Notes: generated by a model not told the origin, from the sequence alone. 52,534 bases of DNA from a virus (IMGVR_UViG_3300034072_000552:1-52534), one strand, 5' to 3'; positions 4,878 to 26,729 are shown, counted from the stretch's first letter. A program made the numbers and translations.

Positions 4878-5228
4878 ATGATCGAAGCCACTGAAGCCGA
4901 TATCGCCCGTTTTTTGAAGATGGTTGACAAGCTTCCTTGCGGTTGCTGGTTCTGGACCGGTGCCCGGTCTCGGGGTAAAGGGAACAAAAAATGGTATGGC
5001 ACTTTCTACGTCAACCGCAAAGTGGGTCGCGTCCGCGCTCACCGGTTCGCGTGTGAAGTGATCGGGAAAAAGGGACCCCTGCCCAGAGGGCACGACCGTG
5101 ACCACAATTGCTTTTTCAGCCTGTGCGTCAACCCGGATTGCCTTGAGTACGTCCCGAAGGAAATCAATCAGCAGCGCCGGATCGACCGGGCGCGCAGAGA
5201 AAAGGAGAACCAATCATGTGTGACTTGA
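4878..5228 (+). CDS. HNH endonuclease
   Basis: A 116-residue HNH-family nuclease of the type common as free-standing genes in phages. The pattern runs CWFWTGA, YGTFYV, RAHRFACE, LPRGHDRDHNC, LCVNPDCLE. DH in RDHNC is the metal and catalytic core, and N in CVNP is the central Asn. The usual final His (CVNPxHLE) is replaced by Cys here, so activity may be altered. The leader AGAAAAGGAG is at 4861-4870. The gene overlaps the next by 13 bases. It may be a homing-type mobile gene sitting just before the hypermodification operon. Confidence 0.8.
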   Translation: MIEATEADIARFLKMVDKLPCGCWFWTGARSRGKGNKKWYGTFYVNRKVGRVRAHRFACEVIGKKGPLPRGHDRDHNCFFSLCVNPDCLEYVPKEINQQRRIDRARREKENQSCVT

Positions 5229-5428
5229 GAGCGGGAGACACCGTCACAGCCGTCGCCGGGACAACTTCAGCCTTGTGGGCTGAAGGACGGACAGGAGTGA
5301 TCGCTGAAGTCCGGGACCCGAAACCCTATTCCGGTAACGACTCAAAGAATTTGGTGCGTTGGGGTGATGAGACAATCCTGGTGGGTTTCCGCCCTGATGA
5401 AGTTGAGAAGGTTTATCACAATGCGTGA
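5216..5428 (+). CDS. Small hypothetical protein, possibly SH3-like
   Basis: A 70-residue protein (MCDLRAGDTVTAVAGTTS...) with alternating beta-prone segments. The RAGDTV, GRTGVIAEV and VRWGDE segments resemble small SH3/KOW-type barrels. AGAAAAGGAG at 5198-5207 fixes the start at 5216. It overlaps both neighbours and leads directly into the hypermodification genes. Confidence 0.65.
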   Translation: MCDLRAGDTVTAVAGTTSALWAEGRTGVIAEVRDPKPYSGNDSKNLVRWGDETILVGFRPDEVEKVYHNA

Positions 5429-6239
5429 CGTCATCATAGTAGGCGGGGGCCTCTTCGGCTCCATCGCCGGGGCGGCGCTCCGGGACGCAGGAATGGACGT
5501 GCTGATCATTGACGATGGTCGCCCTCGCTCCGGGTCCCGCGCCGCCGGTTGCCTCATGAAGCCGTCCTGGCTCCAGAAGATGGGCAAGGACAACGTGGAG
5601 CAGTCCTTCAGGCTCCTTGACAGGCTGTACGGCCTTCGCACCGTCTCGCTCAAGGCGGGGCCGGTTACGGTGGGGGCGGAATGGATCAACCCTGACGAGG
5701 TGCTAAATGGTCGCCTCGTTGAATGTTTTCCATATCGGGTCGCAAAGGTCTCTTCCTTTCCCGGAGGAAATCGGGTTCGTCTTAATCCAGACCTAAAACC
5801 GATTGACGCAAAACACGTCATCGTCGCATGCGGCGCGTGGACCCGTCAGCTCATTCACGGCGTCCCGGTCGTCGGCAAGGTTGGCTTGAGCCTGCGTCTC
5901 TTCAAGGAAGTGGAGGACAACCGGATATCTGTTTGGGCTCCGTACAAGCAGCTTGTTCGGTTCTCTCAGGATGGCTTCCATTGGGCCGGGGACGGCACTG
6001 CTATCCTTGAGAAGAATTGGGACGGTCTCCGGGAAGAGCAATCTACTAAGCGCATATCCGATTTCGCCGGTCAAGGTGGCGGTGAGGTTCGGGTCGGCAT
6101 ACGTCCCTTCGCCCAGACAAGCGATCCGGCGGCGCTGGAAGAGGTTGCCCCGGGGCTCTGGAGCCTGACGGGCGGCGGCAAGAATGGAACCGCAGCCGCC
6201 GGATGGGCTGCTGCTAAATTGTTGGAGAGACTGACGTGA
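5421..6239 (+). CDS. FAD-dependent oxidoreductase (DAO-like), probable hypermodification flavoenzyme
   Basis: A 272-residue flavoprotein with the Rossmann motif GGGLFG at residues 8-13 (MRDVIIVGGGLFGS) and a C-terminal glycine-rich segment (SLTGGGKNGT) typical of D-amino-acid-oxidase/glycine-oxidase-like enzymes. In phages with hypermodified thymine, a flavin-dependent enzyme of this class acts on the amino acid attached to the base, cleaving glycyl-thymidine to 5-aminomethyl-dU. The downstream transferase, kinase and ThyA homologue make that role likely here. The ATG at 5421 overlaps the previous stop by eight bases; an upstream ATG at 5364 lies deep in the previous gene. The exact reaction is inferred. 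Confidence 0.82.
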   Translation: MRDVIIVGGGLFGSIAGAALRDAGMDVLIIDDGRPRSGSRAAGCLMKPSWLQKMGKDNVEQSFRLLDRLYGLRTVSLKAGPVTVGAEWINPDEVLNGRLVECFPYRVAKVSSFPGGNRVRLNPDLKPIDAKHVIVACGAWTRQLIHGVPVVGKVGLSLRLFKEVEDNRISVWAPYKQLVRFSQDGFHWAGDGTAILEKNWDGLREEQSTKRISDFAGQGGGEVRVGIRPFAQTSDPAALEEVAPGLWSLTGGGKNGTAAAGWAAAKLLERLT

Positions 6240-6466
6240 GCGAAAAGCACACGCGCATCCGCGTCAAGAGGACTGACGCAACCGGCTATTGGGGATATCT
6301 AGACTTTGGAGAGCTGACCCGGGAAGAAATGGTGAAGACGATCCGCGCCCGCGCTGATTGGCTTCGCAAGGAAGTCGCCGACATCGACGCGACCCGCGAC
6401 GAAGATTTTGAAGTGGACGTGGTGCGCGGTCGCTACGTTCAGAAACACATCAGGAGCGTACCATGA
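6236..6466 (+). CDS. Small hypothetical protein in hypermodification operon
   Basis: A 76-residue, charged protein (starts GTG; MSEKHTRIRVKRTDATGY...) with no family I recognise. GTGA overlap with the FAD gene stop and ATGA overlap with the transferase start show tight translational coupling, so it may be an accessory subunit of the base-modifying enzymes. Confidence 0.65.
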   Translation: MSEKHTRIRVKRTDATGYWGYLDFGELTREEMVKTIRARADWLRKEVADIDATRDEDFEVDVVRGRYVQKHIRSVP

Positions 6467-7260
6467 GGGACGTCAGTTTAGATAACCCTGTTGAGTGGGG
6501 CCGGCAGCTTATCACCACCAACGACCACGACCCGCTCTATGTCGGCCTGACGGAGTGGGACGTCAAGGGCTCGCGCCTCCGTCGCTTCATGCTTGCCTAC
6601 TGGTGTTGCTATTCGGTCGGCGCGAGCTGGTTTATCTCGCAGCAGTCGGGGTCCCGGTTCTGGGACACGCTCAAGACGGCGGCTGAGAACGTAGAGCCCG
6701 CTCCAATCGGGGGGCGTTGGCCCAGAGCACACGAGCGTCGGCACTGGCGGGGGTCGAAATGCGTGGACAGCGTCCTGTGGCTCCGTGAATCCTACCGCCA
6801 CCCGGAAGAAGCCGTTGTCAGCTTGGAGCGAGCCCGGCACCTCAGTGCTATGTCTGAGCTGATGGACTGGCCTCAGTTCGGCCCTTGGATCGCGTTCAAG
6901 GCCGCCGACATGTTAGAGCGCGTCTTGGGCGTCCCGGTTGAGTTTGAGGATAGCATCCTGACGATGTACAAGGACCCCAAAGAAGGCGCTGAGATGGCGG
7001 CTCCTCTTCTCGGGGTCTCTCATCCTCAAGAGGTTGCCGACCTGATGTGCCGCGCTTATCAGGATATATGGGCCCCGGGGATCGGCGGGGAAGCGGAACG
7101 CGCCTGTAACATCCAGGAGGTTGAGACGGTTTTGTGCAAATGGAAATCAGCCCGGAAGGGCCACTATTTCATCGGCAAGGACACTCAAGATCACCGCCGC
7201 GAGTTGACGGCTTGGGGAGCCCAAGACCTTCTCGCCGTTTACCCAACCGGCAAGGCTTGA
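6463..7260 (+). CDS. Amino acid:DNA transferase-like protein (ADDT / aGPT-Pplase2 family)
   Basis: A 265-residue protein matching the phage amino acid:DNA transferase family first predicted as alpha-glutamyl/putrescinyl-thymine pyrophosphorylase clade 2. Recognisable stretches are DPLYVGLTEW, LAYWCCYSVGAS, the basic block RAHERRHWRGSK and WPQFGPWIAFKAADMLERV. Family members displace pyrophosphate from 5-pyrophosphoryloxymethyl-dU in DNA and attach an amino acid (glycine in the Pseudomonas phage M6 system). ATG 6463 overlaps the previous stop (ATGA). The kinase that would make its substrate follows after a promoter. Assignment is from sequence pattern and context. Confidence 0.75.
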   Translation: MRDVSLDNPVEWGRQLITTNDHDPLYVGLTEWDVKGSRLRRFMLAYWCCYSVGASWFISQQSGSRFWDTLKTAAENVEPAPIGGRWPRAHERRHWRGSKCVDSVLWLRESYRHPEEAVVSLERARHLSAMSELMDWPQFGPWIAFKAADMLERVLGVPVEFEDSILTMYKDPKEGAEMAAPLLGVSHPQEVADLMCRAYQDIWAPGIGGEAERACNIQEVETVLCKWKSARKGHYFIGKDTQDHRRELTAWGAQDLLAVYPTGKA

Positions 7261-7285
7261 CTGTTATCCCCGGCGGGGATAAGGT
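7257..7285 (+). promoter_or_regulatory. Predicted promoter with palindromic TTATCCCC..GGGGATAA spacer
   Basis: TTGACT (7257-7262), 17 bases, TAAGGT (7280-7285); predicted +1 near 7292 and leader AGAAAAGGAG at 7294. The spacer contains TTATCCCC-GGC-GGGGATAA (7264-7282), an inverted repeat that runs into the -10 hexamer and is a likely operator. Confidence 0.65.
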
Positions 7286-7310
7286 CTGATTTCAGAAAAG
7301 GAGAACCAAC

Positions 7311-7919
7311 GTGATCATCAACATTCGTGGAACAAACGGGTCTGGTAAGACCCACCTTGCCCGTCAAATGATCGGCGACAATCCGAGCCCGGTTGATCTC
7401 AACAGCTACGACGCCCCGACCAAGAAGGACCCGCAGCGCCGCCTCCGGGTCGAAGGTTACGCTGGCAACGGCGTGGTGGCTATCGGGTCCTACCGTCAAG
7501 GCTGTGGCGGCATGGACACAATCCCGTCTTTCGCGATCCAACAGGGCGCTATACAATACGCTTTGGAACTGGGGTGTGCGGTTGAGCACGTCCTGTGCGA
7601 AGGGGTTCTGGCCTCCACCGTCGCCGGGAGCTGGCTTGAGTTCTTTCAGGACAAGAGCCGGATTCATCACGAGCAGGTCCTCATCGCCTATCTCGACACC
7701 CCGCTGGAGCTGTGCCTTGAGCGCATCCGGGCTCGCCAGATTGCGGCGAAGGGAGAGACCCGGGAAATCAAGGTCGATCTGGTGCGAGACAAGATCAAGG
7801 CGATCAACGCGACCCGTGCCAAGTTCGATGCTGCCGGCATCGACACCGTCAACCTGCGCCACGACCGGGCCTTTGAGGACCTCAAGGCTTACGTTGAGTT
7901 CAAGTCGGGGGAGGTGTGA
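7311..7919 (+). CDS. P-loop nucleotide/5-hmdU DNA kinase
   Basis: A 202-residue P-loop kinase starting at GTG 7311. Walker A is GTNGSGKTH (residues 7-15). The segment YGAxG-like VEGYAGNGVVAIGSYRQGCGG and the helix LELCLERIRARQ (LID-like arginines) are typical of the small phage kinases encoded with thymine-hypermodification genes. In characterised systems a kinase phosphorylates 5-hydroxymethyl-dU in DNA to give the pyrophosphoryl leaving group. Context (transferase upstream, HMUDK helical-domain protein and ThyA homologue downstream) supports that substrate, although a free nucleotide cannot be excluded. Confidence 0.78.
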   Translation: MIINIRGTNGSGKTHLARQMIGDNPSPVDLNSYDAPTKKDPQRRLRVEGYAGNGVVAIGSYRQGCGGMDTIPSFAIQQGAIQYALELGCAVEHVLCEGVLASTVAGSWLEFFQDKSRIHHEQVLIAYLDTPLELCLERIRARQIAAKGETREIKVDLVRDKIKAINATRAKFDAAGIDTVNLRHDRAFEDLKAYVEFKSGEV

Positions 7920-8209
7920 TGTTCAAGGCCGAAGACTTCAGCGCCAAGACCAATTCACAGGTTGCCAAGATCATTTTGCCGCTTGGCGACAAAGTCATCA
8001 AAATGATCTGCGATCTGTCAGAAGACCAGACCGTTATCGAATTGGCTGCTGTATCAGAAATGAGCCCGCTGACCATTGCGGAACGTTTGTTTTGTTCTGC
8101 GACCGGGTACGCTTTGTCAACCCGCCCCGGAGTTACCCAGCCGGAAAAAGCGGGGCACGCAAGCTGCTTCATGACCGGCTTGGGTTACGAGGTAGAAATC
8201 CATGGCTGA
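7919..8209 (+). CDS. Small hypothetical protein in hypermodification operon
   Basis: A 96-residue protein (MFKAEDFSAKTNSQV...) of unknown family. GGGGAGG precedes ATG 7919, which overlaps the kinase stop (TGATG); its 3' end overlaps the 8202 gene by eight bases. Lys/Ile-rich helical N terminus, then a mixed C-terminal half. Position suggests a partner of the kinase or helical-domain protein. Confidence 0.65.
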   Translation: MFKAEDFSAKTNSQVAKIILPLGDKVIKMICDLSEDQTVIELAAVSEMSPLTIAERLFCSATGYALSTRPGVTQPEKAGHASCFMTGLGYEVEIHG

Positions 8210-9179
8210 CCTCAACACAGAACCCCTCTGGAAATGGGTCAACGAGCGCCATGCGATCTATCTGCGCAAGGCGAAACGGGAGAACCCTGAAGCCTTCCTT
8301 CATCAACGCGACACCGGATTTGATCCATTTGGTTTGGGAGACCGACCTAGTGGAAGGTTGACTGAAGACGATATACTTGATGCGTTCCGCTTCTGTAACG
8401 TCTTCCGCGAGCTGGACCGGGTCACGAAGTGGATCAAGGAGCATATCCGGGAGCCCTACGCCGACCACCGGCACCTCTGGTTGATGCTCGCTATCGCCCG
8501 CTACATCAACTGGCCTGAGACGCTTCAATTTCTGAAGCAATCCGGCTACCCTTGGCCAGATTCATCGATCTTCAGCCCGTCAAATCTGGGACGGGCTCTT
8601 GATTGGTGGTCCAAGCAAGGCAAGAAGGTCTACACAGGCGCTTACATGATCCGCGCTGAAAGCAACCCGAAGGCGGAATGGTATAGCTGGACCAAGCAGC
8701 AGTACATCGCCCGGATTGTGATTGGGCGTCTGTGGGAGGATCGCCACGAGTGGGAAGCGATCCTTGAAGACCAACCGGAAGGCGGTCTGACCATGGAAGC
8801 CGTCTGGACCAGGTTCCAGCACCCCCGCTATATCGGTTGGGGACCGTTTATGGCCTATCAGGTCTGTGTTGATTTACGCCACACACATTACCTTCGTAAT
8901 GCGCCTGACATAAATACGTGGGCGGCGGTCGGCCCCGGCTCGCGGCGCGGCCTCAACCGTCTCGCTGGGCGTCCGGTCGATTTCAACCTGTCCCAGGAGC
9001 AGGGGCTGGACGAGATGCGGGCGATCTACGAAGCCCAGGACGCATACCGGGCTCCGTGGTTGCCCCGTGTCGATCTGAGCGACATTCAGAATTGTCTCTG
9101 CGAGACTGACAAATATCTCCGGGTAAAACTCGGGGAGGGAAGGCCCAGAGCGCAATATGTTCCGGGTCGCGGTTACTAA
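8202..9179 (+). CDS. HMUDK helical-domain / DNA base hypermodification protein
   Basis: A 325-residue protein of the family annotated as 5-hmdU DNA kinase helical domain (aGPT-Pplase1-like) or putative DNA base hypermodification protein. Signature stretches: WKWVNERHAIYLRK, AFRFCNVFRELDRVTKWI, LMLAIARYINWPETL, YIGWGPFMAYQVCVDL and GPGSRRGLNRL, which echoes helix-hairpin-helix DNA glycosylases. It is probably the DNA-engaging partner of the P-loop kinase at 7311, directing phosphorylation of 5-hydroxymethyl-dU in duplex DNA. Which of the two proteins holds the catalytic site I cannot tell from sequence. ATG 8202. Confidence 0.75.
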   Translation: MADLNTEPLWKWVNERHAIYLRKAKRENPEAFLHQRDTGFDPFGLGDRPSGRLTEDDILDAFRFCNVFRELDRVTKWIKEHIREPYADHRHLWLMLAIARYINWPETLQFLKQSGYPWPDSSIFSPSNLGRALDWWSKQGKKVYTGAYMIRAESNPKAEWYSWTKQQYIARIVIGRLWEDRHEWEAILEDQPEGGLTMEAVWTRFQHPRYIGWGPFMAYQVCVDLRHTHYLRNAPDINTWAAVGPGSRRGLNRLAGRPVDFNLSQEQGLDEMRAIYEAQDAYRAPWLPRVDLSDIQNCLCETDKYLRVKLGEGRPRAQYVPGRGY

Positions 9180-9205
9180 AACAACAAGTCCAAGGAGGAC
9201 AATAA

Positions 9206-10306
9206 GTGATCACTATTCAAGCACGCAACGTCAACGACGCCCTCTGGGCCGGGGCTTCGATGATCCGGGAGCACGGCGTTGTCGGCGAAAGCCGTAACGG
9301 CCCGGTTCTGCGGGCTCCCTGCCCCGTCACGACCGTCTATCAGGCCCCTATGGAACGGGTGATGTTCCACCCGGAGCGCGACGCAAACCCGTTCTTCCAT
9401 CTGGTCGAAGCCCTGTGGATGATCGCCGGTCGTAACGACCTCAAGACGCTGACACCTTACGTCTCGAATATGACCAACTTCAGCGATGACGGCGGCAAGA
9501 CACAGCCCGGAGCCTATGGCCACCGGTGGCGGGAGCATTTCCAGCTTGATCAGCTGAATTGGGCTGTGCGTCGCCTGAAGGCCGATCCGAATGACCGGCG
9601 CGTTGTCATCCAGATGTACGACGCCGAAGTGGACCAGTACGCAGCTGACAATGGCGGCAAGGACATACCGTGTAACCTGATGGCCTTGCCGGCTATCAAC
9701 GTCTACGGCTCGCTGGACCTGACGGTGTTCAACCGGTCCAATGATATGGTCTGGGGAGCCTACGGCGCCAACGCGGTTCACTTCTCTGTGCTTCAGGAGT
9801 ATCTGGCGGCTCAGATTGGCGTTCCGGTCGGCACCTACTTCCAGGTATCGAACAATTTCCATGCCTACTTGTCCACGCTCGGGAAGGCCGGTATGGATTG
9901 GCCTTGGGGCAAGTTTGCCCTCGGCGAAGTCGCCGGCACGTTCCGGCCCGACCACTACGGCGCAGGCCGGGTGAAGCCCTTCCCTATGTTCGAGCCCGGT
10001 GAAGACCCGCTCTACATCCTCAACGATATCCAGATGTTTCTGGACGATCCGGCCCGGGTCGACATCCGGTCCCCGTTCCTGCGCAAGATCGCCTGCCCGA
10101 TGGTGATGGCGCATCGCGCCTACAAGGCCGGGAAGAATACAACCGGTATCCAGGACGCCCTGGAAATACTGGAACAGATGCCAGCCGACAACGACTGGAG
10201 AGCGGGGGCCACGCTATGGCTCAAGAACCGGGCGGCGGCGCGCTCCCGGGCAGCAGACGATGGAGTGTCGCATGACGCTGCAAATCAAGATGGAGCTTCT
10301 GGCTGA
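9206..10306 (+). CDS. Thymidylate synthase-like dUMP hydroxymethylase
   Basis: A 366-residue ThyA-fold enzyme, starting at GTG with AAGGAGG upstream. The catalytic Cys is C156 (DIPCNL), the phosphate-binding Arg pair is R131-R132 (NDRRVV), and RSNDMVW plus the following GAN (N189) correspond to the nucleotide-binding RSxD...PFN segment of ThyA. Asn at this position favours dUMP; dCMP hydroxymethylases carry Asp. With hypermodification genes immediately upstream, it most likely makes 5-hydroxymethyl-dUMP rather than dTMP, but the sequence alone does not exclude a true thymidylate synthase. The C-terminal 30 residues are low complexity. Confidence 0.8.
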   Translation: MITIQARNVNDALWAGASMIREHGVVGESRNGPVLRAPCPVTTVYQAPMERVMFHPERDANPFFHLVEALWMIAGRNDLKTLTPYVSNMTNFSDDGGKTQPGAYGHRWREHFQLDQLNWAVRRLKADPNDRRVVIQMYDAEVDQYAADNGGKDIPCNLMALPAINVYGSLDLTVFNRSNDMVWGAYGANAVHFSVLQEYLAAQIGVPVGTYFQVSNNFHAYLSTLGKAGMDWPWGKFALGEVAGTFRPDHYGAGRVKPFPMFEPGEDPLYILNDIQMFLDDPARVDIRSPFLRKIACPMVMAHRAYKAGKNTTGIQDALEILEQMPADNDWRAGATLWLKNRAAARSRAADDGVSHDAANQDGASG

Positions 10307-10445
10307 GGATCGTCAGCCGAAGAACAGCTTTCGCTATGGGTTCAAGTCCGGTGACGCCGGGGTTGAATCCGTCTACATCAAACGGACGGCCTTCAAGTCG
10401 AAGCCGCCGGAAACCATCACGGTGATCATCAATGAAGACACATAA
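10272..10445 (+). CDS. Small hypothetical protein
   Basis: A 57-residue protein (MTLQIKMELLAEDRQPKN...) predicted to be mostly beta-strand. ATG 10272 has GGAG eight bases upstream and lies within the 3' end of the ThyA-like gene; the 3' end overlaps the 10432 gene by 14 bases. An in-frame ATG at 10260 is less likely. Family unknown. Confidence 0.6.
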   Translation: MTLQIKMELLAEDRQPKNSFRYGFKSGDAGVESVYIKRTAFKSKPPETITVIINEDT

Positions 10446-10863
10446 GATTTACATTGCGGCGAAATATGCCCAGCGGTTTGCGCTGCGAGAAGTCGCTGCG
10501 AAGCTCCAAGCTGCTGGTTACGAAATCACCGGCGGCTGGATTTGGGATGATGAAGCCGCTGGCGACAACATCCAATATCACGCGATCCGCGACGTGGAAG
10601 ACGTTCGCCGCGCTGACACGCTCGTCTTCATCGGCGAGCCGCAGGCCTCCGAGAACCGGGGCGGGGGGCGCTGGTTTGAGTTCGGCTACGCCCACGCTCT
10701 GGGCCACCGCACCATCGCCGTCTTGAACCTGGACCCGACGAAGGGCGGTCACGATCACCTCCCCCCGGGGCACGAGACGGTCTTCACGGCACTTCCGAAC
10801 GTGGAGCTGGTCACCTCCTGGGATGAGCTGGTTGATCATCTCACGCTGGAGGCCAGCCAATGA
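10432..10863 (+). CDS. Nucleoside 2-deoxyribosyltransferase-like protein
   Basis: A 143-residue protein with the flavodoxin-like fold of nucleoside 2-deoxyribosyltransferases and relatives (MazG-neighbour, DUF4406-type). KIYIAAKYAQRFALRE at the N terminus, DVRRADTLVFIGEPQ in the middle and the substrate-loop signature GGRWFEFGYAHALG with the nucleophile-region Glu are visible. It would cleave or transfer the N-glycosidic bond of deoxynucleosides or their monophosphates, so it belongs with the nucleotide-metabolism genes around it, possibly removing unmodified or unwanted nucleotides. ATG 10432; ATGA overlap with the next gene. Confidence 0.7.
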   Translation: MKTHKIYIAAKYAQRFALREVAAKLQAAGYEITGGWIWDDEAAGDNIQYHAIRDVEDVRRADTLVFIGEPQASENRGGGRWFEFGYAHALGHRTIAVLNLDPTKGGHDHLPPGHETVFTALPNVELVTSWDELVDHLTLEASQ

Positions 10864-11255
10864 ACGCTCACGTTGAACAGGTCGGCGGGGATCACTACGA
10901 GGCGGTTTACCAGCATTGGGATTGGGCTGCTGAAACCGGTCTCGGGTATCTGGAAGGTTGCGCCACCAAATACGTCACCCGCTGGCGCAAGAAGGACGGC
11001 GTTCAGGGCCTCAAGAAGGCAATCACCTATCTCCAGAAGGTAAAAGCATTGGGGATTACTTATTGCCCTCCGGCCTTCCGTCGCCCGATGCGCTCTGATC
11101 ATCGCCGGCACCAGTTTCTGCTGTCCAACGGTATTGACTTGGGCTCCACTGACTCGGTCGTCATCACAATGATCGACTGCTGGATGGACCACGACGATAT
11201 TGACCGGGCGATCCATTATCTGGAAAAGATGATTGATGAGGGCCCAGATGCTTGA
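10860..11255 (+). CDS. DUF3310 protein, possible nucleotide kinase-related
   Basis: A 131-residue protein with the DUF3310 signature VGGDHYEAVYQHWDWA followed by LGYLEGCATKYVTRWRKKDG and LKKAITYLQK. This domain is found in T7 gp1.7, a nucleotide kinase acting on dTMP and dGMP, and in many phage proteins named nucleotide kinase or SaV-like. Among dUMP-modifying genes, a role in phosphorylating 5-hydroxymethyl-dUMP is attractive, but the domain alone does not prove it. The C-terminal 50 residues (after ITYCPPAFRRPM) look like an added helical segment. Confidence 0.75.
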   Translation: MNAHVEQVGGDHYEAVYQHWDWAAETGLGYLEGCATKYVTRWRKKDGVQGLKKAITYLQKVKALGITYCPPAFRRPMRSDHRRHQFLLSNGIDLGSTDSVVITMIDCWMDHDDIDRAIHYLEKMIDEGPDA

Positions 11256-11529
11256 GAATGTCCTCAAGGTCGTCGGCGCTGAGTTCGGGGTTTCCCGGGC
11301 TCAGCTTCTTTCTGCCACCCGGTCGTCACCGGACGTGGCTTGGGCTCGTCAGGTCGCGATGTGGCTCTACTTCCAAGCCGGGGCTCCGTGTAACTACAGC
11401 CTGGTGGGTCGGGAATTTAACCGGGATCGCACAACCGTTCGCCACGCTGTGGCGAAGGCAAACCGCCTCTTGTCCGATCAGGACGCAGATAGACTGGTGA
11501 CCAATGTTCGCGCAATTACCTCTGTTTGA
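11248..11529 (+). CDS. Stand-alone DnaA domain IV-like DNA-binding protein
   Basis: A 93-residue protein matching the C-terminal DNA-binding domain of the replication initiator DnaA: VLKVVGAEFGVSRAQLL, the helix WARQVAMWLYFQ, and the signature YSLVGREFNRDRTTVRHA (DnaA: GxxFGRDHTTVxHA). There is no AAA+ domain. It would bind DnaA-box-like DNA. It sits directly before the DNA polymerase, and the genome carries repeated TTATCCCC elements that resemble DnaA boxes (TTATNCACA) in its promoters. I chose ATG 11248 (GAGGG upstream); ATG 11236 is possible. It overlaps the polymerase start by 26 bases. Confidence 0.8.
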   Translation: MLENVLKVVGAEFGVSRAQLLSATRSSPDVAWARQVAMWLYFQAGAPCNYSLVGREFNRDRTTVRHAVAKANRLLSDQDADRLVTNVRAITSV

Positions 11530-13555
11530 GCCTGAAAGCTCGTGGACCGCCCCGAACCTGAGAGACCTTCCGACCTCCTGGGGCTCGGGGCGTGTCGCGA
11601 TTGATACGGAAAACCGCGACGAGCTTCTGACCAAACTAGGCCCAGGGGTTCGGCGCGGGGCCTACATTGCCGGCATTTCCGTCGCGATTGAAGACGGTCC
11701 GTGCTTTTACCTCCCGATCCGGCACGCCGGGGGCGGCAACCTTCCTCCTGAGCAAGTGCTTGCCTATCTCCGGGATTGCGCCGCGAAGTTTGACGGCATA
11801 CTGGTCGGGGCCAATCTCGGCTATGATCTTGACTTCCTTGAAGAGGAGGGGATCACCTTTCCGAACGTGAAGTGGTTCCGGGATGTTCAGGTGGCCGACC
11901 CGCTCATCAATGAGCTTCACTACAGCTACAGCCTTGAGTCAATCAGCGAGCGCTGGAACCTTCCCGGCAAGGATGAGACCCTATTGCGCGAATCACTCGC
12001 CGCATACGGTTACACAGGCAAGGCCGCTAAAGGCGGTATCTGGGCACTCCCTGCCAAGCTGGTCGGCCCCTACGGCGAGCAGGACACCCGTCTGCCGCTC
12101 CAAATCCTCCGGCGTCAGGAACGCGAGATTGAAAATCAGGACCTCTGGAAGGTCTTCAATCTCGAAAGCCGAGTGCTCCCGGTTCTCGTCAAGATGCGTC
12201 GCCGGGGCGTGAAGGTCAATCAGGACAAACTGGAGCAGGTTGACGCTTGGTCTCGGGCTGAACAGCAGAAGGCGATTGACGCGGCCAACGCGGTTCATTC
12301 CGGTCGGCGTCTCACCTTTCACGACATTACAAACACTGCTGTCCTCGCCTCCGTCCTCCGTGAGCTAGGGATCGACTTGCCAAAGACTGCGAAGTCAGGC
12401 AAAGACAGCGTCACCGCCAAGGTCCTTGATTCACTCAGTCACCCTATCGGTGATCACCTCCGGCGCGCTAAGAAGATGAGCACACTGCGCTCCACCTTCT
12501 GTGATAGCGTCAAGGAGCACTTAACCAACGGTCGGGCTCACTGTACTTTCAATCAGCTGCGCCGTCAGAAGGACGATGAGAGCGGCGAGACGGAAGGCGC
12601 TGCTTTTGGGCGTTTGAGCTCCGCCAACTTCAACTTCCAAAACCAGCCAGCACGCGACCCGGAGATTGGACCCCTGTGGCGGTCGATCTACGAGCCCGAT
12701 CACGACAAGCCTTGGGCTGCACTCGACTACTCACAGCAGGAGCCCAGACAGGCGGTCAACTCGGCGATAGAGACAGGACCGGCGGCAATCGGACAGGCCG
12801 CGTATGAGAGCGCTTGCGAGGCGGCGCGTCGGTATCGGGAAGACCCCACAATGGACTTCCACGATATGATGACCCGTATGATCAACGGCGACGACTACAA
12901 GGAGCGGGAGGGCGAGAAAGCCTTCAGTCAGAAACGCAAGTATGCCAAAAACATATTTCTGGGGCTATCCTACGGTATGGGCGGCGCGAAGCTCTGCGGT
13001 GATTTGGGTCTGCCGTCCGCTTGGCGTCTGACGTGGAAGGAAGGCCGAGTCAGAAAGCAGAAGGACTTTGAAACCTACGGCGAGGTTGTTGCCAAGGCGA
13101 ACGCGGGCCGGGAAGCCGGTTATGATGTGCGCTATTGGGAATGCGCTGGAACGGAAGGTCAAGCCCTGATCGATATGTTCGACCGTCAGGTGCCGTTCGT
13201 CCGCAAGATGGCCAACTATATGCAGAAGCTCGCTGAGAAGCAGGGCTACATCGAAACAATCGGCGGTCGGCGGTGCCGGTTCCCGACGAAAGATGACGGC
13301 AGCTTCGATTGGCTCCACAAGGCGTTCAACCGCCGCATTCAGGGTGGATCGGCTGACCAGACCAAAATGGCGCTCGTTGAGATGGACGCCGCTGGGCTTT
13401 ATGTCCAACTCCAGGTCCACGATGAAATCGACGGGTCAATGACGCCGGAGGAAGCGCGCTTTGGGGCTGAGATCATGGAGAACGTCCTTCAAACCCACGT
13501 ACCATTTAAGGTCGATGTTGAGCTGGGTGAGAGCTGGGGCGCATCAATGGGATGA
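11504..13555 (+). CDS. polA: Family A DNA polymerase with 3'-5' exonuclease
   Basis: A 683-residue phage replicative DNA polymerase of the Pol I/T7 type. The proofreading exonuclease comes first: AIDTEN (D34, E36), NLGYDLDFL, and YGEQDTRL. The polymerase domain follows: motif A ALDYSQQEPR (D408), the O-helix R478-KYAK482-NIFLGLSY490, and motif C VHDE (D640, E641). There is no 5'-3' exonuclease domain. The residue equivalent to E. coli Phe762 is Leu486, the variant reported as common in marine virioplankton polymerases. If the hypermodification pathway works as predicted, this enzyme must accept hmdUTP. Confidence 0.93.
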   Translation: MFAQLPLFEPESSWTAPNLRDLPTSWGSGRVAIDTENRDELLTKLGPGVRRGAYIAGISVAIEDGPCFYLPIRHAGGGNLPPEQVLAYLRDCAAKFDGILVGANLGYDLDFLEEEGITFPNVKWFRDVQVADPLINELHYSYSLESISERWNLPGKDETLLRESLAAYGYTGKAAKGGIWALPAKLVGPYGEQDTRLPLQILRRQEREIENQDLWKVFNLESRVLPVLVKMRRRGVKVNQDKLEQVDAWSRAEQQKAIDAANAVHSGRRLTFHDITNTAVLASVLRELGIDLPKTAKSGKDSVTAKVLDSLSHPIGDHLRRAKKMSTLRSTFCDSVKEHLTNGRAHCTFNQLRRQKDDESGETEGAAFGRLSSANFNFQNQPARDPEIGPLWRSIYEPDHDKPWAALDYSQQEPRQAVNSAIETGPAAIGQAAYESACEAARRYREDPTMDFHDMMTRMINGDDYKEREGEKAFSQKRKYAKNIFLGLSYGMGGAKLCGDLGLPSAWRLTWKEGRVRKQKDFETYGEVVAKANAGREAGYDVRYWECAGTEGQALIDMFDRQVPFVRKMANYMQKLAEKQGYIETIGGRRCRFPTKDDGSFDWLHKAFNRRIQGGSADQTKMALVEMDAAGLYVQLQVHDEIDGSMTPEEARFGAEIMENVLQTHVPFKVDVELGESWGASMG

Positions 13556-13609: not shown

Positions 13610-14026
13610 ATGGATATATTCTTCAGAGAAGCCCAAGAGGCGGCTAAATACAGCAGGGACCCGTCCACCAAGGTCGGCGCAGTCGTTCACGACAGAGTGG
13701 GTGTAGTTGGCGTTGGTTGGAACCGGTTCCCGAAGGGCGTGCCAGCGGACTGGTGGCACGACCGCGATAAGAAATATCAGGCGGTCGTTCACGCTGAAGC
13801 CGCAGCCTTGATTTCAGCTGGAAGGCTCGCTGCTGGATCAACGCTCACCGTCACGGCGCACCCCTGTAAAGAATGCGCCAAGCTCATTATCGGGTTCGGC
13901 ATCAAATGCGTCGTGTGTCCGCCGGGACCGTGGCGGGACGATCCGGCGGTGATCGAAACCGTGGAAAAGGCGGCTGAGCTGTTCAAGCTCTGTGGCGTTG
14001 AAGTGAGGGCTCCCGATGCCGAGTGA
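13610..14026 (+). CDS. dCMP deaminase
   Basis: A 138-residue zinc-dependent deoxycytidylate deaminase. Zinc ligands and catalytic Glu are H61-A-E63 and the P-C86-K-E-C89 pair. It converts dCMP to dUMP, the substrate for the ThyA-like enzyme at 9206, so it supplies the hypermodification route. The N terminus MDIFFREAQEAAKYSRDPST is typical of phage members. It is the first gene after its own predicted promoter and is followed, with an 11-base overlap, by a nuclease. Confidence 0.9.
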   Translation: MDIFFREAQEAAKYSRDPSTKVGAVVHDRVGVVGVGWNRFPKGVPADWWHDRDKKYQAVVHAEAAALISAGRLAAGSTLTVTAHPCKECAKLIIGFGIKCVVCPPGPWRDDPAVIETVEKAAELFKLCGVEVRAPDAE

Positions 14027-17082: not shown

Positions 17083-17871
17083 ATGGCACCTTCTATTAAA
17101 CTCACAGACAAAGCGCACCAGAGGGTGCGTGAATTCATCGAAGCGGGTTTTGCGGTCGGCGAAGACCGTCAACTTGCTTCCGACCTCCAAGCCCTGCTTC
17201 AGCTCCACGACGAGGTTCACGAAGTCAAGGGCAAGGAGACGGCCCAGGGGCGCGTCAACCGTCTGACGCAGGCACTGAACTGCGCTCTGACCCTGACGCC
17301 TGATCTGCGGATCGCGTCTATTGGGACGCGGGTTGAAGTGCGACCCGCTAAGGGTCACTATTACGACCCGGGTCTGGATCACGTCGCCGAATTTGCGGAG
17401 GCGTTCGGGGCTTACGTGAGCCCTGAGACGGTCGTGCCGGATTACGGACCCGTGGCGGCTGTACACCTTCGGGGGTATTGCTCGGTAGCTAAAGCTCTGG
17501 GCGAAGACCTCAAGGCTTACGCGGCTGAATGCCTTGAGTACAACGATGAGGGCGGGGCTCTTGCTTTGATCCGCCTTCAGCTCTGCCAGGAGGAGCTTGC
17601 TGAGCTGGCGCAGGGCATTATCAACCGGGATATCGTGGAGTGCCTTGACGCTCTGACTGATATGTCCTACGTCTGTGACGGCACCTACCTGACCCTGGGT
17701 CTCGGCCACTACAAGCTCGCGGCCTATGCGGAGGTTCACGCCTCCAATATGTCGAAGCTGGGGCCGGACGGCAAGCCGATATTTTGCGACGCGGGCCGGG
17801 TCGTCAAGGGGCCGAACTATGTGAAACCGGACCTGAGCGGCGTGCTCGGGATGAACGAGGAGGAACGGTGA
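17083..17871 (+). CDS. MazG-like NTP pyrophosphohydrolase
   Basis: A 262-residue protein. Its C-terminal half carries the all-alpha NTP pyrophosphatase pattern: CQEELAELAQGI, then ECLDALTDMSYV (metal-binding E/D residues), and the family tail EVHASNMSKLGPDGKP ending in KGPNYVKPDL. Such enzymes hydrolyse (d)NTPs to monophosphates. Here it could remove dUTP or dTTP so that hmdUTP is used. The N-terminal ~120 residues are of unknown function. The leader AGAAAAGGAG fixes ATG 17083. Confidence 0.78.
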   Translation: MAPSIKLTDKAHQRVREFIEAGFAVGEDRQLASDLQALLQLHDEVHEVKGKETAQGRVNRLTQALNCALTLTPDLRIASIGTRVEVRPAKGHYYDPGLDHVAEFAEAFGAYVSPETVVPDYGPVAAVHLRGYCSVAKALGEDLKAYAAECLEYNDEGGALALIRLQLCQEELAELAQGIINRDIVECLDALTDMSYVCDGTYLTLGLGHYKLAAYAEVHASNMSKLGPDGKPIFCDAGRVVKGPNYVKPDLSGVLGMNEEER

Positions 17872-24878: not shown

Positions 24879-26729
24879 ATGACAACCCTTCCGACCTCTG
24901 ACAGCCTTCGCTCACTCATAACCGGGATGGGTGATCCGAATGTCGACAAGTCCGCAGCCGTGTTCTACGGAAACCTGATCCTCAGCGACAACCAGCTTCA
25001 CAACGCCTACCGCAACACGTGGTTGGCGAAGAAGATTGTCAATATCCCGGCGCTGGACGCTCTGCGCAAGTGGAGGGATTGGCAGGCTGAGCAGACCCAG
25101 ATCACGCTGATCGAAAAGGAGGAGCAGAGGCTTGGCCTCAAGCAGAAGCTGCTCCAGTGTAAGACGTTGGCCCGTCTTTGGGGCGGCGCGGTTATCTTCA
25201 TCGGCGACGGCACGAACGCTTCCCAGCCCTTCTATCCCGAGAAGGTAGGGAAGGGGGGCCTGAAGTATCTCACCGTGATGAGCCGCCGGGAAATGATCGC
25301 CAATGAGCTTCAGATCGATCCCGAAAGCGAGCAATACGGCTGGCCGATTGACTACACCATCAGCAACGGACGGCAGTTCACGACCATTCACCCCTCCCGC
25401 TTGGTGATCCAGATCGGCGATCCGCTCCCCGATCCGTGGAACCCTATCGGCTCGGTCACTTCGACCGGCTGGGGCGATAGCGTGCTTCAGTCCGTCTACA
25501 CTGCCGTGTCGAATGCCGATAGCACAGCAGCGAACGTCGCAAGTCTTGTATTCGAAGCCAACGTGGACGTGTACAAGATCGATGAGCTCATGGAGCACAT
25601 GTCCTCCGCTCCGTATCGCCAAAAGCTGCTTGATCGCTTCTCGCTCGCCAATATCGGCAAGTCGGTCAGCAAGGCCCTCATCGTGGACAAGGACGAGGAG
25701 TATGACCGCAAGCAGATCAACTTCTCCAATCTCCCAGACGTCATTCAGCAGTTCTTGATACTGGTGTCAGGTGCGTCGGATATCCCACTCACCCGGCTCA
25801 TCGGTCAGTCGCCCTCAGGTCTGAACTCGACCGGCGAGCACGACATGAAGAACTACTTCGACCGGATCACATCAGCCCAGACGCTCGAAATCCAGCCTGC
25901 CCTGTTCAAGCTCGATGAGGCCCTCATCCGGTCTGCTTTGGGCTCGCGTCCCGATGAGATTTTCTACTCTTGGGCTCCTCTGGAGCAGATGAGCGAGAAG
26001 GAGAAGGCCGAAATCGGCAAGATCAAGGTGGAGGCCGCTGCCGCGATTGTCAACACCGGGCTCTTCATGCAGGAGGAGCTTCGCAAGGTTGTCGGCAACC
26101 AGCTCGTGGAAGATGGCTTTTACCCCGGCTTGGCCGACCTCCTCAAGGAGAATGGAGACAAGCTGCCTGAATTCGACCTTGAACGCCGGTCGCAGGAAGC
26201 CTCAGTCAAGGCTCTTGAGAACCCCCAGCCCAAGACGCCGGTCACTGACGCTACCCCGCGCACTCTCTACCTGCGCCGTGATGTCGTCAACGCCGACGAG
26301 ATCATCAAATGGTACAAGGATCAGGGTGTTCAGGACGTTTACGCCCCGGAGAGCATGCACGTCACTATCGTCTACACCAAGACGCCGGTTGACTGGATGA
26401 AGATGGGCCAGCCTTGGGAAGCGCGCCTTGAAATACCGGACGGAGGCCCAAGGATCAACGAGAAGTTTGGTGATCAGGGCGACGTTCTGGTGCTGTTGTT
26501 CGCCTCCAACGAGCTTCAGTGGCGTCATATGTGCGCCAAGGAGCTTGGGGCAACGAGCGATTATCCAGAATACCAGCCGCACATCTCAATCAGCCTGCGC
26601 GGGGGCGAGCTTGACCTGATCAACCTCAAGCCGTGGCAGGGACCGATTGTCCTGGGTCCCGAAATCTATGAGGAAATCGCAACCGGCGACTGGCGCGAGA
26701 AGGTGACGACCGATGGCAGTGATGCGTAA
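24879..26729 (+). CDS. Portal (DUF1073) fused to Acb1-like 2H phosphoesterase
   Basis: A 616-residue protein. Residues ~1-440 are a DUF1073 portal (NAYRNTWLAKKIVNIPALD, RLWGGAVIFIGDG, PLTRLIGQSPSGLNSTGEHD), the dodecameric ring through which DNA enters the head. Residues ~465-605 are a 2H phosphoesterase with both catalytic motifs: H494-V-T496 (MHVTIVY) and H568-I-S570 (QPHISIS). This domain matches T4 Acb1, which cleaves cyclic di- and trinucleotides and so disarms CBASS defence; databases already name some DUF1073 proteins as Acb1 family. The linker at ~440-462 is rich in Glu, Pro and Thr. Whether the domain stays on the portal or is cleaved off cannot be seen. Confidence 0.85.
   Translation: MTTLPTSDSLRSLITGMGDPNVDKSAAVFYGNLILSDNQLHNAYRNTWLAKKIVNIPALDALRKWRDWQAEQTQITLIEKEEQRLGLKQKLLQCKTLARLWGGAVIFIGDGTNASQPFYPEKVGKGGLKYLTVMSRREMIANELQIDPESEQYGWPIDYTISNGRQFTTIHPSRLVIQIGDPLPDPWNPIGSVTSTGWGDSVLQSVYTAVSNADSTAANVASLVFEANVDVYKIDELMEHMSSAPYRQKLLDRFSLANIGKSVSKALIVDKDEEYDRKQINFSNLPDVIQQFLILVSGASDIPLTRLIGQSPSGLNSTGEHDMKNYFDRITSAQTLEIQPALFKLDEALIRSALGSRPDEIFYSWAPLEQMSEKEKAEIGKIKVEAAAAIVNTGLFMQEELRKVVGNQLVEDGFYPGLADLLKENGDKLPEFDLERRSQEASVKALENPQPKTPVTDATPRTLYLRRDVVNADEIIKWYKDQGVQDVYAPESMHVTIVYTKTPVDWMKMGQPWEARLEIPDGGPRINEKFGDQGDVLVLLFASNELQWRHMCAKELGATSDYPEYQPHISISLRGGELDLINLKPWQGPIVLGPEIYEEIATGDWREKVTTDGSDA

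Follow-up and report, generated by a model that had tools for sequence, protein, structure and literature searches.

The viral genome IMGVR_UViG_3300034072_000552, analysed here over its entire length of 52,534 nucleotides (the window), carries at positions 5421-10306 a cluster of genes for the hypermodification of thymidine. We consider it very probable that this cluster specifies a post-replicative pathway of the type found in Pseudomonas phage PaMx11, ending at 5-aminomethyl-2'-deoxyuridine (5-NmdU). Here, we identify the enzymes of the cluster and show that their conserved residues are retained; the order of the reactions and the product are predicted from the solved and named PaMx11 orthologues and from prior literature. 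The window is a PaMx11-type member with natural variation, in that it has no acetyltransferase of the GNAT family and its flavin enzyme gene precedes the transferase gene. The novelty of the system lies in its evolution: sister phages, Pseudanabaena phage Pam3 and Rhizobium phage RHph_I65 (I65), carry on the same core the M6-type pair of a radical S-adenosylmethionine (SAM) protein and a pyridoxal phosphate (PLP) enzyme. The N-alpha-glycinylthymidine (N-alpha-GlyT)/5-NmdU pathway had previously been characterised in one Pseudomonas phage and is now extended to complete Pam3-like genomes that include the cultured Rhizobium phage RHph_TM26 (TM26).

Composition and integrity of the cluster

The cluster comprises the following open reading frames (ORFs):

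5421-6239, plus strand: flavin adenine dinucleotide (FAD)-dependent N-alpha-GlyT lyase, orthologue of PaMx11 gp47/NGTO (DAO, PF01266, 1.7e-12)
6236-6466, plus strand: unassigned ORF of 76 aa, overlapping the ends of both flanking genes
6463-7260, plus strand: amino acid:DNA transferase, predicted glycinyltransferase, orthologue of PaMx11 gp46 (ADDT, PF18724, 2.1e-20)
7311-7919, plus strand: P-loop subunit of 5-hydroxymethyl-2'-deoxyuridine (5-hmdU) DNA kinase (HMUDK_HMUD1, PF18748, 8.1e-9)
7916-8209, plus strand: unassigned ORF of 97 aa, kept in close relatives
8202-9179, plus strand: HMUDK_hel protein, helical partner of the 5-hmdU DNA kinase (PF18723, 1.9e-43)
9206-10306, plus strand: ThyA-like protein, predicted dUMP hydroxymethylase (Thymidylat_synt, PF00303, 5.8e-17; phrog_5131, 6.7e-118)

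The initial annotation had placed five of these ORFs, all of which lie on the plus strand, at these positions, and its assignments are borne out by Pfam matches, each above the curated gathering cut-off; the profiles place the proteins starting at 6463, 8202 and 5421 inside the ADDT, HMUDK_hel and DAO families, respectively. The two ends of the window have 197 bp in common with one mismatch. Because of this terminal repeat we regard the window as a complete genome, from which gene absences can therefore be argued. Named phages hold collinear homologues of the cluster, so its arrangement is not due to chance, and these homologues together with the family scores rule out chance or mis-annotated ORFs.

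Across the five proteins, each compared with 31-86 homologues, the window retains 199 of 201 near-invariant residues, defined as those conserved at 92% or more (FAD protein 35/35, ADDT 51/52, kinase 14/14, HMUDK_hel 30/31, ThyA 69/69). Relative to the nearest relative, a phage locus labelled L007, nonsynonymous divergence (dN) is 0.04-0.23 and synonymous divergence (dS) 0.54-1.34, with dN/dS of about 0.07-0.2 for the 97-aa ORF and the genes of the five enzymes. Since the near-invariant residues are kept and dN is well below dS, these genes are intact and under purifying selection.

The FAD lyase and the glycinyltransferase

The protein encoded at 5421-6239 matches PDB entries 8Z2O/8Z79 ('flavin-dependent lyase') with an E-value of 3e-63. 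Its AlphaFold2 model (pLDDT 92) superimposes on 8Z79, by its title an N-alpha-GlyT FAD-dependent lyase (gp47/NGTO) from a phage, presumably one of Pseudomonas, with a TM score of 0.94 at 1.7 A and 41% identity, and the structural runners-up are flavin amine oxidases (sarcosine, iminodiacetate and glycine oxidases). The 6463-7260 protein matches 8Z2M/8Z2N, titled 'Glycinyltransferase', with an E-value of 1.5e-53. Because the PaMx11 gene map has gp46 as the ADDT protein and gp47 as the FAD protein, these titles identify 8Z2M/8Z2N and 8Z2O/8Z79 as PaMx11 gp46 and gp47. Wen et al. 2024, who described the PaMx11 structures, name 5-NmdU in the title of their paper (as cited in PMC11946847); taken with the PDB titles, this points to glycine as the co-substrate and to 5-NmdU as what the lyase produces. 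This orthology supports the initial annotation on two counts, in reading the cluster as a thymidine-hypermodification system and in predicting that the base is 5-aminomethyl-dU derived from glycine. As to its further suggestion that the end product might differ from those of characterised phages, 5-NmdU is not a new product, since Wen et al. 2024 already name it; the difference from PaMx11 is that a GNAT of the gp48 type is missing, so that the base should be unacetylated. Among bacterial genomes the lyase had a single match, in a metagenome-assembled Gammaproteobacteria bin, which gives no pointer to the host.

PaMx11 gp46-gp51 and the window have five enzyme families in common, including the split kinase and the FAD lyase, at 33-50% protein identity. 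They differ in that PaMx11 carries the GNAT gp48 between lyase and kinase, and in gene order, which is ADDT-FAD-GNAT-kinase in PaMx11 and FAD-ADDT-kinase in the window. A functional parallel is provided by MnmC1, which converts tRNA 5-carboxymethylaminomethyluridine (cmnm5U) to 5-aminomethyluridine (nm5U) through FAD-dependent oxidative loss of the carboxymethyl group (PMC3648344). MnmC1 resembles the FAD lyase in removing a carboxymethyl group from 5-(carboxymethylaminomethyl)uracil and in its DAO/glycine-oxidase fold; its substrate, however, is tRNA, and we do not claim orthology.

The kinase subunits, the ThyA homologue and the small ORFs

The P-loop kinase has the Walker A motif GTNGSGKT and is 94% identical to its L007 counterpart (dN 0.037, dS 0.56); the PaMx11 kinase is likewise split, with the P-loop and helical proteins encoded by separate genes. 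The HMUDK_hel protein was modelled with confidence as all-helical (pLDDT 93). For a glycosylase-like (helix-hairpin-helix) fold of this protein the PDB matches were too weak to use and none was significant, the top one being hOGG1 (E 2.0, prob 0.18). The ThyA-like protein has Cys156 in the place of the catalytic cysteine and Asn189 at a position where CMP 5-hydroxymethylase has an aspartate. An asparagine there fits dUMP, not CMP or dCMP, as the substrate of a ThyA-family enzyme.

Neither small ORF belongs to a known family. The 76-aa ORF has no Pfam or PHROG match and no homologue was found for it in L007; it is 62% identical to EVC13_004 of I65. The 97-aa ORF has homologues in TM26, I65 and L007 (dN 0.09, dS 0.93).

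The predicted pathway and its end product

In the pathway that we propose, dCMP deaminase would supply dUMP, the ThyA-like enzyme would form 5-hmdUMP, and the phage polymerase would place 5-hmdU in DNA instead of T. The P-loop and HMUDK_hel proteins would then phosphorylate part of the 5-hmdU in DNA, the glycinyltransferase would exchange the phosphate for the amino group of glycine to give N-alpha-GlyT, and the FAD lyase would oxidatively cleave the glycine N-C-alpha bond to yield 5-NmdU. With no GNAT encoded, the amine of the base would stay free and positively charged, and shielding from host restriction is the likely benefit. The early steps would follow the scheme common to phages M6, ViI and phiW-14, in which 5-hmdU in DNA is phosphorylated by 5-hmdU DNA kinase and subsequently modified by amine transferases and other enzymes (PMC6449724). 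In PaMx11 the FAD lyase comes on top of this.

The prediction of the end base draws on the absence of further tailoring enzymes. GNAT (PF00583) was found neither in the whole window nor in TM26, L007 or a further relative, L008, and the same four genomes have no PLP enzyme homologous to YuA gp11. A direct search of the window revealed no radical SAM protein, the amidoligase profile had no match in it, and all known tailoring profiles, run over every window ORF, returned none of the GNAT, radical SAM, PLP or amidoligase sets. The initial annotation, too, had noted that acetyltransferase, radical SAM and PLP genes were not visible. Homologues of the radical SAM and PLP enzymes were found in phages YuA, Pam3 and I65. 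Since none of the four enzyme types is present in the genome, the predicted base is unacetylated 5-NmdU. The M6-type route is ruled out, there being neither a radical SAM protein nor a PLP enzyme; an acetylated product was rejected on the absence of GNAT from the complete genome and the three nearest lyase relatives, and an amidated one on the absence of an amidoligase profile match from the window.

Several considerations weigh against this reading. A GNAT of unrecognised fold, or an acetyltransferase of the host, could cap the amine. The glycine specificity of the 6463 transferase is predicted from orthology at about 40% identity; the ThyA homologue is a probable hydroxymethylase, as opposed to a methylase, by family and residues; and 5-NmdU as the end base is itself a prediction from sequence.

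The alternative that survives best keeps the same pathway and supposes another end base in vivo, either because the lyase step is incomplete and N-alpha-GlyT accumulates or because the amine is modified further, be it by an enzyme of the host or by a phage protein that escaped recognition, such as the 76-aa or 97-aa ORF or others without a family. The two small conserved ORFs within the operon, the many window ORFs without a Pfam match and the additional enzyme carried by most other FAD-lyase phages speak for it. We nevertheless judge it unlikely, as the 76-aa ORF is not specific to the lyase, occurring in I65 with its other chemistry and not detected in L007, the 97-aa ORF occurs in I65 too, and none of the four phages in the lyase clade of the window has a GNAT. 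Far less likely still is a transferase that takes another amino acid, with the FAD enzyme trimming the adduct to 5-NmdU or another amine. ADDT-family enzymes are reported to take different amino acids in different phages, and the transferase and its PaMx11 counterpart are no more than about 40% identical; against this, the FAD enzyme is orthologous to the solved N-alpha-GlyT lyase, and FAD and radical-SAM phages draw on the same ADDT clade, both routes being understood as glycine-initiated. A decaying or unused cluster, leaving virion DNA with plain T or just 5-hmdU, found no support in the sequence and is very improbable, given intact ORFs, retained catalytic residues, dN/dS well below 1 and collinearity in relatives.

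Probable exchange of tailoring genes on a common core

The predicted route to 5-NmdU is one of two that occur on the same core. In Pam3 and the Rhizobium phages I65 and RHph_I72, the core proteins (ADDT, kinase, HMUDK_hel and ThyA) are 55-73% identical to those of the window and the genome organisation is closely related, but radical SAM and PLP genes replace the FAD lyase, as in M6/YuA, and the predicted base is 5-aminoethyl-dU. Pseudomonas phages M6 and YuA, which have 5-aminoethyl-2'-deoxyuridine (5-NedU), resemble the window in their core enzymes and in the presumed glycine start, the M6 radical SAM route reportedly also starting at glycinyl-T, and differ in tailoring with radical SAM and PLP enzymes without a FAD lyase. 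The initial annotation's description of the cluster as the set known from M6 and PaMx11 therefore stands for PaMx11 and fails for M6, to judge from the M6-like YuA.

We compared 82 loci that were non-redundant by ADDT sequence; as the sample was seeded by lyase and ADDT searches, its counts are not population frequencies. On the common core, 31 loci carry the FAD lyase, 44 a radical SAM gene without the lyase, and 7 neither, several of the last being fragments. Among the 31 lyase loci, a GNAT is present in 9 and an amidoligase in 12, another 9 have neither of these, and a single one combines lyase and radical SAM; a GNAT beside the lyase is thus a variable feature that does not define the lyase branch. 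Two loci (L050:9000-18000 and L067:9000-14000) score for both FAD-lyase-like and radical-SAM proteins beside ADDT, with weak FAD matches of 170 and 41 bits; L067, weak for both and without a kinase match, was left out of the count for both chemistries. The proteins of the 12 amidoligase loci are weakly similar to Amidoligase_2 (PF12224, best E 8e-5; for example L012:9870-10793, L019:3787-4701, L022:4449-5354, L024:9845-10810 and L028:8234-9190, among others), and in several of these loci a low-molecular-weight phosphatase-like protein (PF01451) comes next, ahead of the kinase. In such phages 5-NmdU may be joined to another group through an amide bond, which would possibly constitute a thymine modification not yet described.

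Most Pam3-like phages have the radical SAM gene, usually with PLP, and in this clade the lyase occurs only in the window, L007, L008 and TM26. TM26 resembles the window in gene order (FAD-ADDT-kinase-97 aa-HMUDK_hel-ThyA), in having no GNAT and in its lyase, which is 73-75% identical. It differs in an extra AAA_33 (polynucleotide-kinase-like) gene in place of the 76-aa ORF, and in its core genes, whose closer relatives are those of I65, a radical-SAM phage, and not those of the window. The AAA_33 gene adjoins the tailoring slot in both Rhizobium phages (L001:1228-1719 in TM26; L005:1834-2322 in I65) and is absent from the window. The lyase tree joins the window, L007, L008 and TM26 at 100/100, whereas the core tree pairs TM26 with I65 at 100/100. 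The four lyase phages are a group defined by trait and not by tree; constraining them to cluster was rejected with the core genes concatenated (p-AU 0.0002) and with each single gene (ADDT 5e-6, kinase 4e-6, HMUDK_hel 1e-7, ThyA 2e-40).

For the most part, this region of TM26 (L001/L111) can be aligned with that of I65 (L005/L112), the DNA identity being 73-89%. The alignment breaks at the boundary of the I65 PLP gene, where TM26 has, in place of PLP and a small ORF, a 75-aa ORF with no detected relation; it resumes across gene 001, stops where FAD and radical SAM genes replace each other, and resumes 33-36 bases into the next gene. That PLP and radical SAM differ together despite the conserved gene 001 between them fits joint action in one pathway. 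The conflict between lyase and core trees and these replacements at gene boundaries provide good support for exchange of the tailoring branch on an inherited core at least once.

More tentatively, and with the balance of probability somewhat against it, the clade might end with an uncapped, cationic 5-NmdU and Pam3-like phages might switch DNA chemistry wholesale by swapping tailoring genes (FAD lyase against radical SAM and PLP) on a fixed glycinyl-thymidine core, possibly aided by an HNH protein, as a serotype-like switch against host restriction. TM26 and I65, the latter representing the radical-SAM form of the core, are cultured sister phages with core proteins 74-90% identical and different predicted thymine chemistry. 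Such related natural pairs make testable the old question of whether the modified base alone alters sensitivity to restriction and type IV enzymes.

Nucleotide-supply and neighbouring genes

Other genes near the cluster or possibly connected with it are the following:

4878-5228, plus strand: HNH-like protein at the border of the tailoring slot, 74% identical to Pam3_45, annotated as an HNH endonuclease
10860-11255, plus strand: DUF3310-like protein (phrog_5839, 3.5e-28; PF11753 just below cut-off)
11504-13555, plus strand: family A DNA polymerase (PF00476, 3.7e-38)
13610-14026, plus strand: dCMP deaminase, probable source of dUMP (PF00383, 7.6e-18)
17083-17871, plus strand: MazG/PRA-PH-like nucleotide pyrophosphohydrolase (PF01503, 5.1e-5, barely above cut-off)

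The dCMP deaminase had been recognised in the initial annotation and is confirmed. The MazG-like assignment holds by its narrow margin, with a role as nucleotide pool filter being possible, and the DUF3310 assignment is upheld by PHROG and not by Pfam. The polymerase would need to incorporate 5-hmdU. The HNH-like gene lies directly upstream of the slot in FAD phages (L007, L008) and in radical-SAM phages (Pam3, L035, L036, L048) alike; gene exchange is a process in which it could take part, and the chemistry does not need it.

Adjoining the ThyA gene, the protein encoded at 10432-10863 has weak similarity to nucleoside 2-deoxyribosyltransferases (PF05014, below cut-off), and the dTMP pool might be its target; the matching position in TM26 is occupied by a DUF4406 gene. 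Finally, the C-terminal domain (residues 461-607) of the portal protein encoded at 24879-26729 (PF06381) matches the anti-CBASS protein Acb1 (PF23474, E 1e-34), which identifies the predicted product as a portal-Acb1 fusion.

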